From the NCBI RefSeq assembly GCF_000616095.1, contig NZ_BAMS01000003.1:62001-126000 (forward strand): a stretch of DNA of 64,000 nucleotides. The letters run 5' to 3'. The stretch is from Sneathiella glossodoripedis JCM 23214 (GTDB lineage Bacteria; Pseudomonadota; Alphaproteobacteria; Sneathiellales; Sneathiellaceae). The first letter of the stretch is position 1. Each line of letters begins with the position of its first letter. A model generated the notes under the pieces. It saw only the letters and a program-made list of their open reading frames with translations. It ran no database searches and was not told the origin of the DNA. Shown piece after piece: positions 14,278 through 19,465 of this stretch. Made by a program: the position numbers and the translations under genes.

Positions 14278-14298
14278 TCGGACATTCAGGTATTCATA

Positions 14299-14328
14299 AA
14301 AAAGCGGCAGGCATCTGCCGCTTTTTTT
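14299..14328 (+). terminator. Rho-independent terminator of hisZ-purA
   Basis: AAAAGCGGCAG pairs with CTGCCGCTTTT around GCAT and continues into seven T. A compact, GC-rich, near-ideal intrinsic terminator. Confidence 0.92.
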
Positions 14329-14409
14329 GTGGCGCTGCGGCTACTCGTTTAACGCCATATTAACTGTAATTCTGCATTTTGTAGGCAGTTTGTTAGTTTG
14401 TGCAGTAGA

Positions 14410-16464
14410 ATGTCGCAGATAACTGCGGCTGGATGGTCGGAAATGAGCGGTGCGGATGAGCAGGGTACATTGCGGGGGAGGTACAAAGTTCTTCTTCAGC
14501 AACCACTACCCCAATATGATAGCGGTGAAAACAAGGCCTACAAGGTCGAGGATCTGCGCGACTCTAATAATATACTTTATGCGCTGGTGGTCGGTGATGG
14601 CGTTCCTTTTCGGGACGACATCGTTGAGCCATTAACTTCGCGAAATACCCCGAGCCTGACGTCCCTTCATTCCCACGGTGTTGTCCATTTTGGGAACACG
14701 GATTACCGCTATGTATTTGTTCATGATATGCCTGTGGGAGGACGTGTCTTTGAGGAAGGGCAGGGTGGTCTGTCAGAGCAGCAGGTCCTCAACGTTATCG
14801 TTCCCAAGCTTGTCGATGTCATCATCAATTTTGCATCAAGAGAGCTGACGCATCGAAATATTCGCGCTGATAATGTTTTCTATATGGATAACGAAAAAGC
14901 CGGGATTGCGCTTGGTGAATGTGTGAGCTGTCCGCCCGGTTCCCTGCAGCCAGCAGTGTATGAGCCCTTGGAAAGTGCAAATGCACTTGCAGATGGTCGG
15001 GGCCCGGGTACGGTCATGAGCGATATATACGCGCTTGGTGTGATGATTGTGCATATGCTGGGTGGGGTTCTGCCCGGTGAGGGGCGGACCGCGACTGAAC
15101 TTTATGCCTTGAAACTTGCGCATGGATCCTATGCGGTGCTTGTACCGAAAATACCGGCATCTTCGCGGGTTGGATTTCTGCTGGCTGGATTGCTCAATGA
15201 TGATCCGAGCAGACGGTGGAATACGGAAGTTCTCATCCGTTGGCGGGATGGTGTCTATGAACGGCCACGCCCGGGATTTGGCGACCGGCAGGCACCCGGC
15301 CCGATTATTTTCGAGGGTGAGGAATATTTATCTCCGCGTTTGCTATCACTTGCCATGACGAAAAAGCCGGCTCAGGCATATATTCTGCTGGAAGGTGGGA
15401 AGGTAGAAAGCTGGGTTCGAAACTCGCTCAATGATAAAGATGCAAGCGCCCGTATTGCCGATACTATCAGCGGCCGAATGCGAATAAGCGGTGGTGCACG
15501 GCGACGTGAATTGCAATGTGTTTCTCGTGTGAGTGCCATTTTAGATAACACGGGAGCGTTCTGGTATAGGGAAGTCACTTTTTCGCGCGGGGGCCTTGGC
15601 GGCTTGATTGCTCACGCGTTCAGAAGTGACGGACCGGTTAAAACTGCAATTGCCGAGATGCTGGAAAGTGGCGTTTTATTGGATGCAATTTATGTGGATC
15701 TGGATCGAAGTGAGGCCGGGCGGCGAAAAGACAATAGTTGGGTGACGCTTGGCAGGATTACAGATTGCTATGAATTTATGGAAAAGCGGGATCTACTGGG
15801 TTTTGGGTTGGAGCGATGCCTGTATGAACTGAACCCGTCCATTTCCTGCATGAGTTCGACCTTGCAAGGGGCCTATGCCAAAGATGTCGAAAAGCTGATG
15901 GATATTCTGGAGGAGCGGGCTTTTAAACTGGATGGCAAGATTAATCCGTTAGATCGCCATACTGCAGCTTTTATCGCGACCCGAACTAAAACCCTGACGA
16001 AGAATTTTCAAAAACTGTCGTCTCTGGCGCCCGATAGTGTTGCCTATACGATTATGCTTATCGAAATGATGGGACGATTGCAAAATGCAAAAAGTCCGTC
16101 GCCAAAGCCCGGGTTATGTATGTGGGTTCAAGTTGTTCTTAAGCCTGTTATCAAAAAAATCCATTCCAGTATTCGGCGGGAATTTGTGCTCAAGAAACTC
16201 GAAAATGCGATGGAAAGCGGAAATATTGATAGGATTCTAAAAGAAATAGATCTTGAAAATAATTTGCGCCGGGACTCCTCTGAATATGAGCAGGCGATCA
16301 AGGAATTTATTGATATCAATACAGGTATACAATCCTTGGAAAATGGGGGCAAAGCGCGGGCTTATGCCGCTAAAAAATACGGGCAGTGGATTGCCTCCGT
16401 CATTTCCATCGCGGCACTGCTCAGCAGTTTTGGCTTTTCCTATTTGCATTTCGTAGGTTTTTAA
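14410..16464 (+). CDS. Large protein-kinase-like (pseudokinase) membrane-anchored protein
   Basis: About 684 residues. The first 300 look like a Ser/Thr kinase domain whose catalytic residues have decayed: the catalytic loop reads LTHRNIRADNVFY (about residue 146) with Asn in place of the HRD aspartate, the DFG position reads LGECVS, while the later helix MSDIYALGVMIVHML keeps the structural Asp-Gly pattern. A region of about 360 residues after it matches nothing I know; it is helical with several charged segments. One hydrophobic helix (about residues 660-682) ends the protein, so the kinase-like part would face the cytoplasm. The next gene starts at the base after its stop. Start uncertain: ATG 14410 or ATG 14443. 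Loss of catalysis is inferred from motif reading. Confidence 0.75.
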   Translation: MSQITAAGWSEMSGADEQGTLRGRYKVLLQQPLPQYDSGENKAYKVEDLRDSNNILYALVVGDGVPFRDDIVEPLTSRNTPSLTSLHSHGVVHFGNTDYRYVFVHDMPVGGRVFEEGQGGLSEQQVLNVIVPKLVDVIINFASRELTHRNIRADNVFYMDNEKAGIALGECVSCPPGSLQPAVYEPLESANALADGRGPGTVMSDIYALGVMIVHMLGGVLPGEGRTATELYALKLAHGSYAVLVPKIPASSRVGFLLAGLLNDDPSRRWNTEVLIRWRDGVYERPRPGFGDRQAPGPIIFEGEEYLSPRLLSLAMTKKPAQAYILLEGGKVESWVRNSLNDKDASARIADTISGRMRISGGARRRELQCVSRVSAILDNTGAFWYREVTFSRGGLGGLIAHAFRSDGPVKTAIAEMLESGVLLDAIYVDLDRSEAGRRKDNSWVTLGRITDCYEFMEKRDLLGFGLERCLYELNPSISCMSSTLQGAYAKDVEKLMDILEERAFKLDGKINPLDRHTAAFIATRTKTLTKNFQKLSSLAPDSVAYTIMLIEMMGRLQNAKSPSPKPGLCMWVQVVLKPVIKKIHSSIRREFVLKKLENAMESGNIDRILKEIDLENNLRRDSSEYEQAIKEFIDINTGIQSLENGGKARAYAAKKYGQWIASVISIAALLSSFGFSYLHFVGF

Positions 16465-16971
16465 ATGGTTGATCAGGCGCAAATTAAAAAAAGATCCAGC
16501 AGTGTTGCCAAGCTTCTGATTTGTGTGGGGTTGGGTGCAGTGTTTGTACCGCCAACGGTGATTATTCTGGGAGTCGGTATGGTTCCCACATTCGTCGCAC
16601 GTTTTGCAAATCCCAACAGAGTGCGCGGGACTGTTGCTGCAATGGCGGCGTTCAATCTGGCCGGTATAGTACCAGTTCTTGGAATTTTATATGACAGAGG
16701 CCACACGATTGAACAGGCTTTCCGGCTACTCTCAGACGTATATATGTGGCTGATGATGTATGGTGGTGCGGGAATGGCTGCTTTTCTGTTATGGGGCGTA
16801 CCTCTTGTGGTGCAAGGCGGATATGAAATGCAGGCACGGCAATATATTAAACGCTTGGAGAAACGCCGCAGTCGCATGATTGAGGAATGGGGCGGGCAGA
16901 TTGTTGCCGATGCGAAAATTCTTCCTGCGAATCCCGACGCGCCTGCGGCAAAGGGAACTCCTGATAAATAA
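16465..16971 (+). CDS. Small multi-pass membrane protein paired with the pseudokinase
   Basis: 168 residues with three predicted membrane helices: about residues 16-37 (LLICVGLGAVFVPPTVIILG), 52-72 (around AAFNLAGIVPVLGIL) and 88-115 (around MYGGAGMAAFLLWGVPLVV). A basic region, YIKRLEKRRSRMIEEWGG, follows the last helix, probably cytoplasmic. No family recognised. Its ATG directly abuts the pseudokinase stop (no intergenic base), which implies translational coupling and a shared function at the inner membrane. Confidence 0.8.
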   Translation: MVDQAQIKKRSSSVAKLLICVGLGAVFVPPTVIILGVGMVPTFVARFANPNRVRGTVAAMAAFNLAGIVPVLGILYDRGHTIEQAFRLLSDVYMWLMMYGGAGMAAFLLWGVPLVVQGGYEMQARQYIKRLEKRRSRMIEEWGGQIVADAKILPANPDAPAAKGTPDK

Positions 16972-17031: not shown

Positions 17032-17391
17032 ATGTCAGATCACGTGTATTGGATCATTGAGGCCGATATTGTTCCGGGCAAGTTAGACGAGCTTAAATCA
17101 CTCATGCAGGAGATGTCAGCGGCGACTGAAGCTGATGAGCCCGGTGCGCTTAATTATGAATGGTCGTTAAGCGCGGATGAGACAGAGTGCCATATTTTCG
17201 AGCGCTATCAAGATAGTGATGCCACGATGGTGCATATGGGAAATTTTGGAAGCAAATTTGCGAAACAGTTTATGTCTGTTTTGAAACCTAAGCGGTGCAG
17301 ATTGTATGGGGCACCGGATGAGCGTGTGCAAAAAGCGATGAAGCCATTGGGTGCTGTCTACCTTGCTTCTGCAGCTGGTTTTTCGCGTTAA
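17032..17391 (+). CDS. Antibiotic biosynthesis monooxygenase (ABM) family protein
   Basis: 119-residue ferredoxin-like alpha-beta barrel protein: YWIIEADIVPGKLDELKSLM begins the first strand and helix, ALNYEWSLSADETECHIFERY holds the central strands, and MGNFGSKF follows. ABM proteins include small quinol monooxygenases and heme-degrading enzymes, but many have no known substrate. The C-terminal 30 residues extend past the normal domain. It stands alone, with a terminator after it. Confidence 0.75.
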   Translation: MSDHVYWIIEADIVPGKLDELKSLMQEMSAATEADEPGALNYEWSLSADETECHIFERYQDSDATMVHMGNFGSKFAKQFMSVLKPKRCRLYGAPDERVQKAMKPLGAVYLASAAGFSR

Positions 17392-17411: not shown

Positions 17412-17450
17412 GAATGGCAGGCAATATTAATCGCCTGCCATTCCTTTTTT
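17412..17450. terminator. Bidirectional terminator between the ABM gene and hupE
   Basis: GAATGGCAGGC (17412-17422) pairs perfectly with GCCTGCCATTC (17433-17443). On the plus strand the stem is followed by a C and six T; in the other direction the tract is weaker. It separates the convergent ABM and hupE genes. Confidence 0.8.
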
Positions 17451-17455
17451 CAAAG

Positions 17456-18018
17456 TTAGACTGCAGCCAGACCAATGCCTGCGAAAGCGACAGCCGCACC
17501 TGCGTACCGCAGCGCATATGGGGCAAAACGGCCGACTGCGACACCACCTGCATGAAGGGCCGCACTCGCGAGCATCATGCCGATGCCATAAGCTGCAGCA
17601 GTTGTATCTGCAGGCATTTCAATGCCGTGTGCAGCGCCGTGGAAAACGGCAAACAGAGCAACCATGGTGGCGCTAGCAAACAAAGGTAGGCGTTTACCAA
17701 AGGCAACGACTGCGCCAAGCAGGACAACTGAAGCCAGAATTCCCTGTTCTACATAGGGAACATTCAAGCTGACAGGCCAAGGATGCCACCAACAGCCATC
17801 ACCGCGACAAACAGCGCAGGCAGTAGAACCAAGGATTTTCCGGTGTTCTGAGCTGCCAGCAAGCCAACAGCCAGCATGGCCAGAATATGATCAAGGCCAA
17901 CAAGAGGATGAATGAAGCCGGCGGTAAAATCACCTGTAACTGTGTGCCCTGGATGAGCAAAGGCTGGACCTGCAGTCAAAAGAGTGAGGGCTGTGGCCAG
18001 ATAAATCGTGTTTTTCAT
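17456..18018 (-). CDS. hupE: HupE/UreJ-type nickel transporter, frameshifted
   Basis: Inner-membrane protein that takes up nickel (or cobalt) for hydrogenase or urease. Signal peptide MKNTIYLATALTLLTAGPAFA, then AHPGHT and the conserved HPLVGLDHILAMLAVG, whose histidines and aspartate bind metal, and later FAVFHGAAHGIEMP. About six membrane helices. The frame breaks near 17769; TCAGCTTGAATG read as TCAGGCTTGAATG gives LSGLNVPYVEQG and a normal 187-residue protein. It is divergent from nikR with the NikR operator between them, so nickel-repressed expression is expected. No urease or hydrogenase genes lie in the window. Confidence 0.92.
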
Positions 18019-18587: not shown

Positions 18588-19465
18588 TTAGTTTATGCGG
18601 TCTTCAAACGCGCGACTTTTCATCGCTTTTTGAAGTTTTTCGAACGCCCGAACCTCAATCTGGCGGACACGTTCGCGGCTGATGTTATATTCCTGGCTAA
18701 GATCTTCCAGGGTTAGAGGATCATCACGAAGACGCCGTTCGGTAAGGATATGGCGTTCCCGCTCGTTCAGGCAGTCCATGGCCGACAGAAGCATCTCTTT
18801 GCGGCGGGTCAGCTCTTCATTTTCTGCGTAAACGGTTTCCTGATCCGGTGTTTCATCCTCAAGCCAGTCCATCCATTCCCCTTCAGTGTCCGCGCGCATG
18901 GGGGCGTTGAGACTGTGATCCGGGGCGGTGAGGCGACGGTTCATGTTCACCACTTCTTCTTCGGAAACACCGAGTTTCGTTGAAATGGTTTCCACATGTT
19001 CAGGTTTGAGATCGCCTTCTTCGATGGCTTCGATCTGGCCTTTAATCTTTCTCAGATTAAAAAACAGTTTTTTCTGTGCTGCCGTGGTTCCCATTTTCAC
19101 AAGAGACCATGTCCGCAGGATATATTCCTGAATTGCGGCTCTGATCCACCACATGGCGTATGTGGAAAGGCGGAACCCTTTTTCGGGCTCAAAACGTTTC
19201 ACAGCCTGCATCATACCCACATTGCCCTCGGCAATGAGTTCGCCCACGGGGAGACCATATCCGCGATAACCCATGGCGATTTTTGCCACAAGGCGCAAAT
19301 GCTGGTGACCATTTTGTGAGCCGCTTCTGAATCACCGCGCTCTTTCCAGGCTTTGGCCAGCATGTATTCTTCATCCGCTTCCAGCATGGGGAATTTGCGG
19401 ATTTCCTGAAGATAACGGGATAATCCACCTTCAGGTGAAAGTGTTGGTAAAGTAACGTTACTCAT
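18588..19465 (-). CDS. rpoH: RNA polymerase sigma factor RpoH (sigma-32), frameshifted
   Basis: Heat-shock sigma factor. Region 1.2-2.1 starts with LSRYLQEIRKFPMLEADEEYMLAKAW; region 2 has RFEPEKGFRLSTYAMWWIRA; the RpoH-specific box appears as QKKLFFNLRKIKG; region 4 ends with LSQEYNISRERVRQIEVRAF. The frame breaks near 19301: ACCAGCATTTG read as ACCAGCCATTTG restores MVTSHLRLVAKIA and gives 292 residues, the normal size. Alphaproteobacteria often have more than one RpoH; only one is here. It follows rluD on the same strand with a 119-base gap that can hold its own promoter. Confidence 0.95.

Follow-up and report, generated by a model that had tools for sequence, protein, structure and literature searches.

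A pair of adjoining genes in a Sneathiella genome, lying within the 64-kb stretch of DNA analysed here (the window), encodes a kinase-fold protein (PK) and a small membrane protein (PT) that occur in the identical 100 of 289 alphaproteobacterial genomes sampled (Fisher p 2e-80, with phylogeny ignored). Judged from its sequences, the PK family is a conserved pseudokinase rather than a decaying kinase. The reading favoured here, which we hold to be moderately probable, is that PK and PT form an obligate inner-membrane complex in which the pseudokinase serves as a non-phosphorylating scaffold or switch, with the working surface on a separate helical domain. Bacterial pseudokinases are already known as a kind; what is new is that this family has a domain peculiar to it and is joined to an obligate membrane partner. 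The literature searched contained neither a description of the pair nor the helical domain's signature motif, and PK and PT could not be identified with entries in a 2007 list of Rhodospirillales signature proteins. A plasmid record carries the two as “serine/threonine protein kinase” and “hypothetical protein.”

The PK-PT locus and its distribution

The features of the locus are as follows, by position in the window; residues of PK are numbered throughout from ATG 14410.

14295..14331 (+), terminator-like hairpin between purA and PK (-21.4 kcal/mol, z -6.5 by folding energy)
14443..16464 (+), PK, the pseudokinase protein (ORF1), 673 aa from ATG 14443, where homologues begin to align; alternative starts are ATG 14410 (684 aa) and TTG 14398
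14458..15258 (+), kinase-fold domain of PK, residues 17-283 (AlphaFold2 pLDDT mostly >90)
14851..14874 (+), degenerate catalytic loop HRNIRADN, residues 148-155, with the HRD Asp replaced and the loop Asn kept
14908..14916 (+), ALG in place of DFG, residues 167-169
15262..16248 (+), helical domain of PK, residues 285-613 (~330 residues), well modelled and mostly helical
15799..15855 (+), signature motif GFGLERCLYELNPSISCMS, residues 464-482, pattern GxGxERCLYxLNxxxPCxS
15952..15960 (+), DRH motif, residues 515-517
16252..16458 (+), C-terminal 69-residue helix of PK, residues 615-683: a cytoplasmic part, then the membrane anchor from about residue 661
16465..16971 (+), PT, the partner membrane protein (ORF2), 168 aa, with no Pfam family and no PDB relative
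16738..16920 (+), PT helix 92-152, the third membrane helix running on to a conserved EWG motif (pLDDT mostly 91-98)
17412..17443 (strand.), strong hairpin (z -5.9) after the ABM-domain ORF and before hupE

The original prediction took ORF1 to be 684 residues long. Such a reading does exist from ATG 14410, but ATG 14443, which has GGA upstream of it, is the likelier start because homologue alignments begin at Met12 of the longer reading. The close abutment of the two genes was seen correctly, with the PK stop codon (TAA, 16462-16464) followed directly and in frame by the ATG of PT at 16465 (...TTT TAA ATG...). Isolation of the pair by terminators, also proposed, holds on the purA side, where the hairpin is strong, but not downstream, where folding energies give no terminator-like hairpin directly 3' of PT (z -1.0). 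Next on the same strand is a 119-aa ORF with an ABM domain (17032-17391 (+); Pfam E 3e-7). It is monooxygenase-like, and 11 of the flanking loci examined contain a member of its family; the example that could be read comes from the Sneathiella group. Beyond it, hupE (17456-18018 (-)) and rpoH (18588-19465 (-)) each appear as a pair of overlapping ORFs that differ in frame, and the FlhA of this genome (G000) is split into three matches. These split readings suggest indels in G000, possibly from assembly errors; the PK and PT frames are intact.

A scan of the genome collection with a single sequence gave no matches, and an alignment-based scan was successful. PK and PT lie side by side on a single strand in 97 of the 100 carriers, the exceptions being one contig break and two real separations (G217 and G287), and 104 of the 115 PK matches have PT directly downstream. 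The expectation that the genes would always be adjacent is thus very nearly borne out, and the finding that would have spoken against it, the two genes commonly apart, was not made. Its conservation throughout the class excludes chance as an explanation of the pair. Carriers include Sneathiella, Oceanibacterium, Magnetospirillum, Rhodospira, Azospirillum (where the pair is on plasmid-sized replicons), Skermanella, Telmatospirillum, Magnetovibrio, SAR116, and Kordiimonas. The common place is serA-hisZ-purA-PK-PT, facing rpoH-rluD. Carrier genomes range from 1.4 to 6.5 Mb, and a unit kept over such a range, often at the same chromosomal place, must be useful.

Second copies are tandem or dispersed and often paired too, including tandem PK-PT-PK-PT arrangements. 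One of these, in G145 (L146:3500-10892), immediately precedes flhA on the same strand; G145 also carries a third pair, which is at purA (L147). Five genomes (G229, G147, G298, G112, and G140) have second PK copies for which no PT was detected, and two (G038 and G158) have orphan PT genes. These orphans, with the separated pairs, indicate that neither gene requires the other as a direct neighbour. In G038 (L151, L152, L153) and G158 three extra PT-like genes have no adjoining PK, and one of them is directly downstream of a 994-aa ORF resembling a hybrid histidine kinase (L152:7974-10958). Of the second PK copies located away from purA (L150, L156, L144, and L145, from G229, G112, and G140), several have no detected PT; TssA-like (ImpA_N), pentapeptide-repeat, and GT41 glycosyltransferase genes are among the neighbours of these second copies. 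Taken together with FlhA, IlvD, and EF-P, the neighbours of copies and pairs away from purA show no common theme.

The kinase-fold and helical domains of PK

The AlphaFold2 model of PK was built on 27 homologues (mean pLDDT 89, pTM 0.84). The best structural match of residues 17-283 is WNK3 (VIA-align Z 22.3, rmsd 3.0 A over 253 residues). In sequence, the Pfam Pkinase profile PF00069 matches PK with E 6e-6 and 26.3 bits, below its gathering score of 31.7, although a few homologues do exceed that score. Pfam, NCBIfam, and PADLOC searches gave nothing for PK beyond generic kinase-domain matches.

Conservation was counted over 183 distinct PK homologues. The catalytic residues are almost entirely gone, with the VAIK Lys and the HRD Asp each kept in two of the 183 and the DFG Asp in none. 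At the Lys position the residue is hydrophobic in almost all (Val in 85, Ile in 69, Leu in 18), and the Asp of HRD is mostly replaced by Ala, Ser, Gly, or Asn. The rest of the core is of another character: the loop Asn (177/183), DFG Gly (176), APE-type Glu (176), F-helix Asp (182), and subdomain XI Arg (182) are near-invariant, and the HRD His and Arg are largely kept (His148 in 174, Arg149 in 142). In the beta3-alphaC region, 27/27 and 61/63 homologues keep Arg68. The contrast between the near-invariant core and the lost catalytic residues indicates that selection has retained the fold and not the chemistry. Asn in place of the catalytic-loop Asp and the missing DFG, both read originally from the single PK sequence, are correct for that protein (HRN and ALG), and the degenerate pocket predicted for all orthologues is found in nearly all of them; intact HRD and DFG motifs in most species, named beforehand as evidence to the contrary, are not seen. 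WNK kinases replace the missing VAIK Lys by a lysine elsewhere in the N-lobe. No such relocation was seen here, as every Lys in the N-lobe is conserved in less than 60% of the PK homologues.

The helical domain has no Pfam family (63 members searched, E 0.1), and its profile found only chance matches among PDB sequences; Foldseek and VIA matches to the PK model are restricted to residues 17-283. Across 299 genomes of the phylum, the helical-domain profile matched only in Alphaproteobacteria (11 genomes), in 10 of the 11 inside frames of PK length. Its motifs are conserved to the same degree as the kinase core. Tyr472 and Cys480 in the signature motif are each invariant (183/183), and in the DRH motif Asp515 is found in 179 and His517 in 175. 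A possible internal two-fold repeat (286-365 against 366-450, in 676-residue numbering) is in register and not significant (E 0.1). The C-terminal helix, with Asp622 present in 182 of the 183, ends in the one membrane helix that had been proposed for ORF1, in agreement with both hydropathy and the AlphaFold2 model.

PT and its coupling to PK

PT has likewise the three membrane helices originally described, by hydropathy and in the predicted model. It matches no Pfam family, its profile gave only chance matches against PDB sequences, and Foldseek found nothing significant with the model. The invariant residues are P41, N64, P113, W142, and G143, the last two counted over 65 sequences. Direct-coupling analysis within PT gave the pairs 31-76, 42-61, 60-106, 68-98, and 71-97, which are consistent with three helices in an antiparallel bundle. 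In this arrangement the C-terminal helix would share one side of the membrane with the charged loop 45-54, and the N-terminus would be on the opposite one; the helix beyond the third membrane segment, up to residue 152, is probably on the cytoplasmic side.

Mirror-tree distances of PK and PT are strongly correlated (r 0.92 over 36 loci). After removal of PurA and RpoH distances a partial r of 0.71 remains (permutation p 0.0005), so that the two proteins coevolve beyond what common descent gives. Plain mutual information between them was dominated by invariant columns and clade differences. Direct-coupling analysis between the proteins, over 167 paired sequences, places 626-146, 639-127, 625-132, and 636-131 (PK-PT) among its seven strongest inter-protein pairs, and these four join the cytoplasmic helices of PK and PT in antiparallel register. 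This is suggestive, being what would be expected if both helices leave the membrane side by side; since the band was spotted post hoc and a scan of all bands gives p 0.26, it is to be taken as a lead only.

Put together, the anatomy of the favoured complex would be as follows. PT would be embedded in the membrane, with its cytoplasmic helix (about 118-152) packed antiparallel on the PK helix stretch 615-660, so that pseudokinase and helical domain would hang as one unit on the cytoplasmic face. The pseudokinase domain would carry out no phosphorylation and might act by binding proteins, as a scaffold or a switch. The working surface for a target may be presented by the helical domain, which has the invariant Y472, C480, D515, and H517.

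Possible roles and comparison with known systems

The original prediction offered two roles, a cytoplasmic scaffold held at the membrane by its partner or a nucleotide-binding sensor. The membrane-held scaffold fits the predicted anatomy and the coevolution, but the sensor is disfavoured, as the Lys and both Asp residues of ATP and Mg binding are gone. A scaffold or switch held at the membrane is the likeliest role, given the loss of the catalytic residues and the lack of any further Pkinase match above the Pfam cut-off in 65 of the 100 carriers. In the host genome no Pkinase match exceeds the cut-off anywhere; the only other weak one is in a 267-aa frame (G000:C11:417343-417540, 21.6 bits). 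Most carriers are thus left without a recognisable Hanks-type kinase once PK is set aside, which makes the “kinase” label misleading.

The nearest rival would have the kinase-fold domain bind nucleotide without Mg, or carry out some other ATP-dependent reaction (cf. SelO, SidJ, POMK-like), making the complex a membrane nucleotide sensor or transferase. The near-invariant Asn of HRDxxxxN and Gly of DFG, with the conserved Arg68, mean that the cleft could still be used; set against the hydrophobic residue at the VAIK Lys position in almost all homologues, the complete loss of the DFG Asp, and the lack of a relocated lysine, these two proposals are together unlikely. It is also rather improbable that the helical domain is itself an enzyme, with Cys480, Asp515, and His517 (and Tyr472) as its active site and with the pseudokinase and PT regulating or placing it. 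The near-complete conservation of these residues, in a domain without a known sequence family, is what such an active site would show, although invariant polar residues may equally be structural or belong to an interface. A broader proposal, speculative and with little probability attached, is of an ancient alphaproteobacterial complex in which the pseudokinase controls a novel helical enzyme or ligand receptor and is coupled through the paired long helices to a three-helix sensor. If true, it would be a signalling or quality-control module without a described counterpart, centred on Tyr472/Cys480 with Asp515/His517.

An accessory role in the flagellum or its export apparatus is about as doubtful as an enzymatic helical domain. 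FlhA is found in 93 of 100 carriers and 85 of 189 non-carriers (Fisher p 3e-17, phylogeny ignored), and tandem pairs are directly upstream of flhA in one genome, but there are many reduced genomes among the non-carriers, seven carriers, some nearly complete, have no FlhA, those 85 genomes have FlhA without the pair, and the usual neighbours are purA and rpoH. Many eukaryotic pseudokinases allosterically activate or recruit genuine kinases. For PK to do so with a true Ser/Thr kinase, this general precedent is all there is in favour, and it is very improbable; as a general function it is already largely refuted, since 65 of the carriers have no such kinase above the cut-off besides PK, nor does the host genome. 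Least credible is a phage-defence or toxin-antitoxin pair of the PD-T4-6/MAD6 kinase type: PADLOC matches (best E 2e-7) are weak and span only parts of the kinase fold, with no full-length match to that anti-phage family, and in most of the carriers seen the pair occupies a fixed chromosomal site, with purA on one side and rpoH on the other, rather than a variable island.

To our knowledge, bacterial pseudokinases have been little studied. For the scaffold or switch favoured here, a dedicated membrane partner and genetically tractable hosts (Azospirillum, Magnetospirillum) make the role of a non-catalytic kinase fold testable.

PK resembles canonical bacterial Ser/Thr kinases (PF00069) in its fold and in the structural residues of the C-lobe, and differs from them in the absence of catalytic residues and in having its own C-terminal domain. 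It is not a canonical Hanks-type kinase, by the counts for the VAIK Lys, HRD Asp, and DFG Asp (2, 2, and 0 of 183) and by its score below the PF00069 cut-off. As in bacterial pseudokinases generally, the kinase fold is conserved and the catalytic residues are lost. A 2025 review treats the families ActPs1-3, GLW, CP1, DYD, and DLHK and also takes up EssB/YukC, SidJ, and SelO; going by its text descriptions, none of its families fits the motifs and architecture of PK (PMC12599244). GLW pseudokinases are also from Proteobacteria, but PK has neither GLW in place of HRD nor the poly-Leu beta3 motif (PMC12599244): HR is retained, as counted above, and the beta3 motif is F/Y-A-L-I/V. At the beta3 Lys position, where DYD pseudokinases have Arg, PK homologues mostly have Val, Ile, or Leu, as counted above. 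DLHK proteins retain the HRD Asp, have helicase-type domains, and lack a membrane region, whereas in PK that Asp is nearly always lost, no helicase-type domain is present, and there is a membrane helix.

Nearest in mode of working are two membrane-bound systems. EssB/YukC, a membrane pseudokinase of the T7SS, is described as a homodimeric, non-catalytic scaffold that recruits partners, and like PK it has a cytoplasmic pseudokinase domain with all catalytic motifs lost and a single membrane helix (PMC12599244). PK differs in that a large helical domain separates its kinase fold from the anchor, in its dedicated three-helix partner, and in being found in Alphaproteobacteria where EssB/YukC is from Firmicutes (PMC12599244). 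None of 63 PK members has a YukC Pfam match (E 0.1), and no T7SS genes were seen among the neighbours, the usual ones being serA, hisZ, purA, rpoH, and rluD. In MviN (ActPs3), as described in the same source, a pseudokinase without catalytic motifs is likewise tied to a membrane protein, but is situated inside a large one (PMC12599244). In the PK-PT pair a small gene of its own encodes the membrane protein, which matches no Pfam family. The 63 PK members have no MurJ-type Pfam match, and PK has one membrane helix only. By analogy, the best reading is that PK-PT may work in the manner of the EssB/YukC and MviN pseudokinases, while belonging to neither family.
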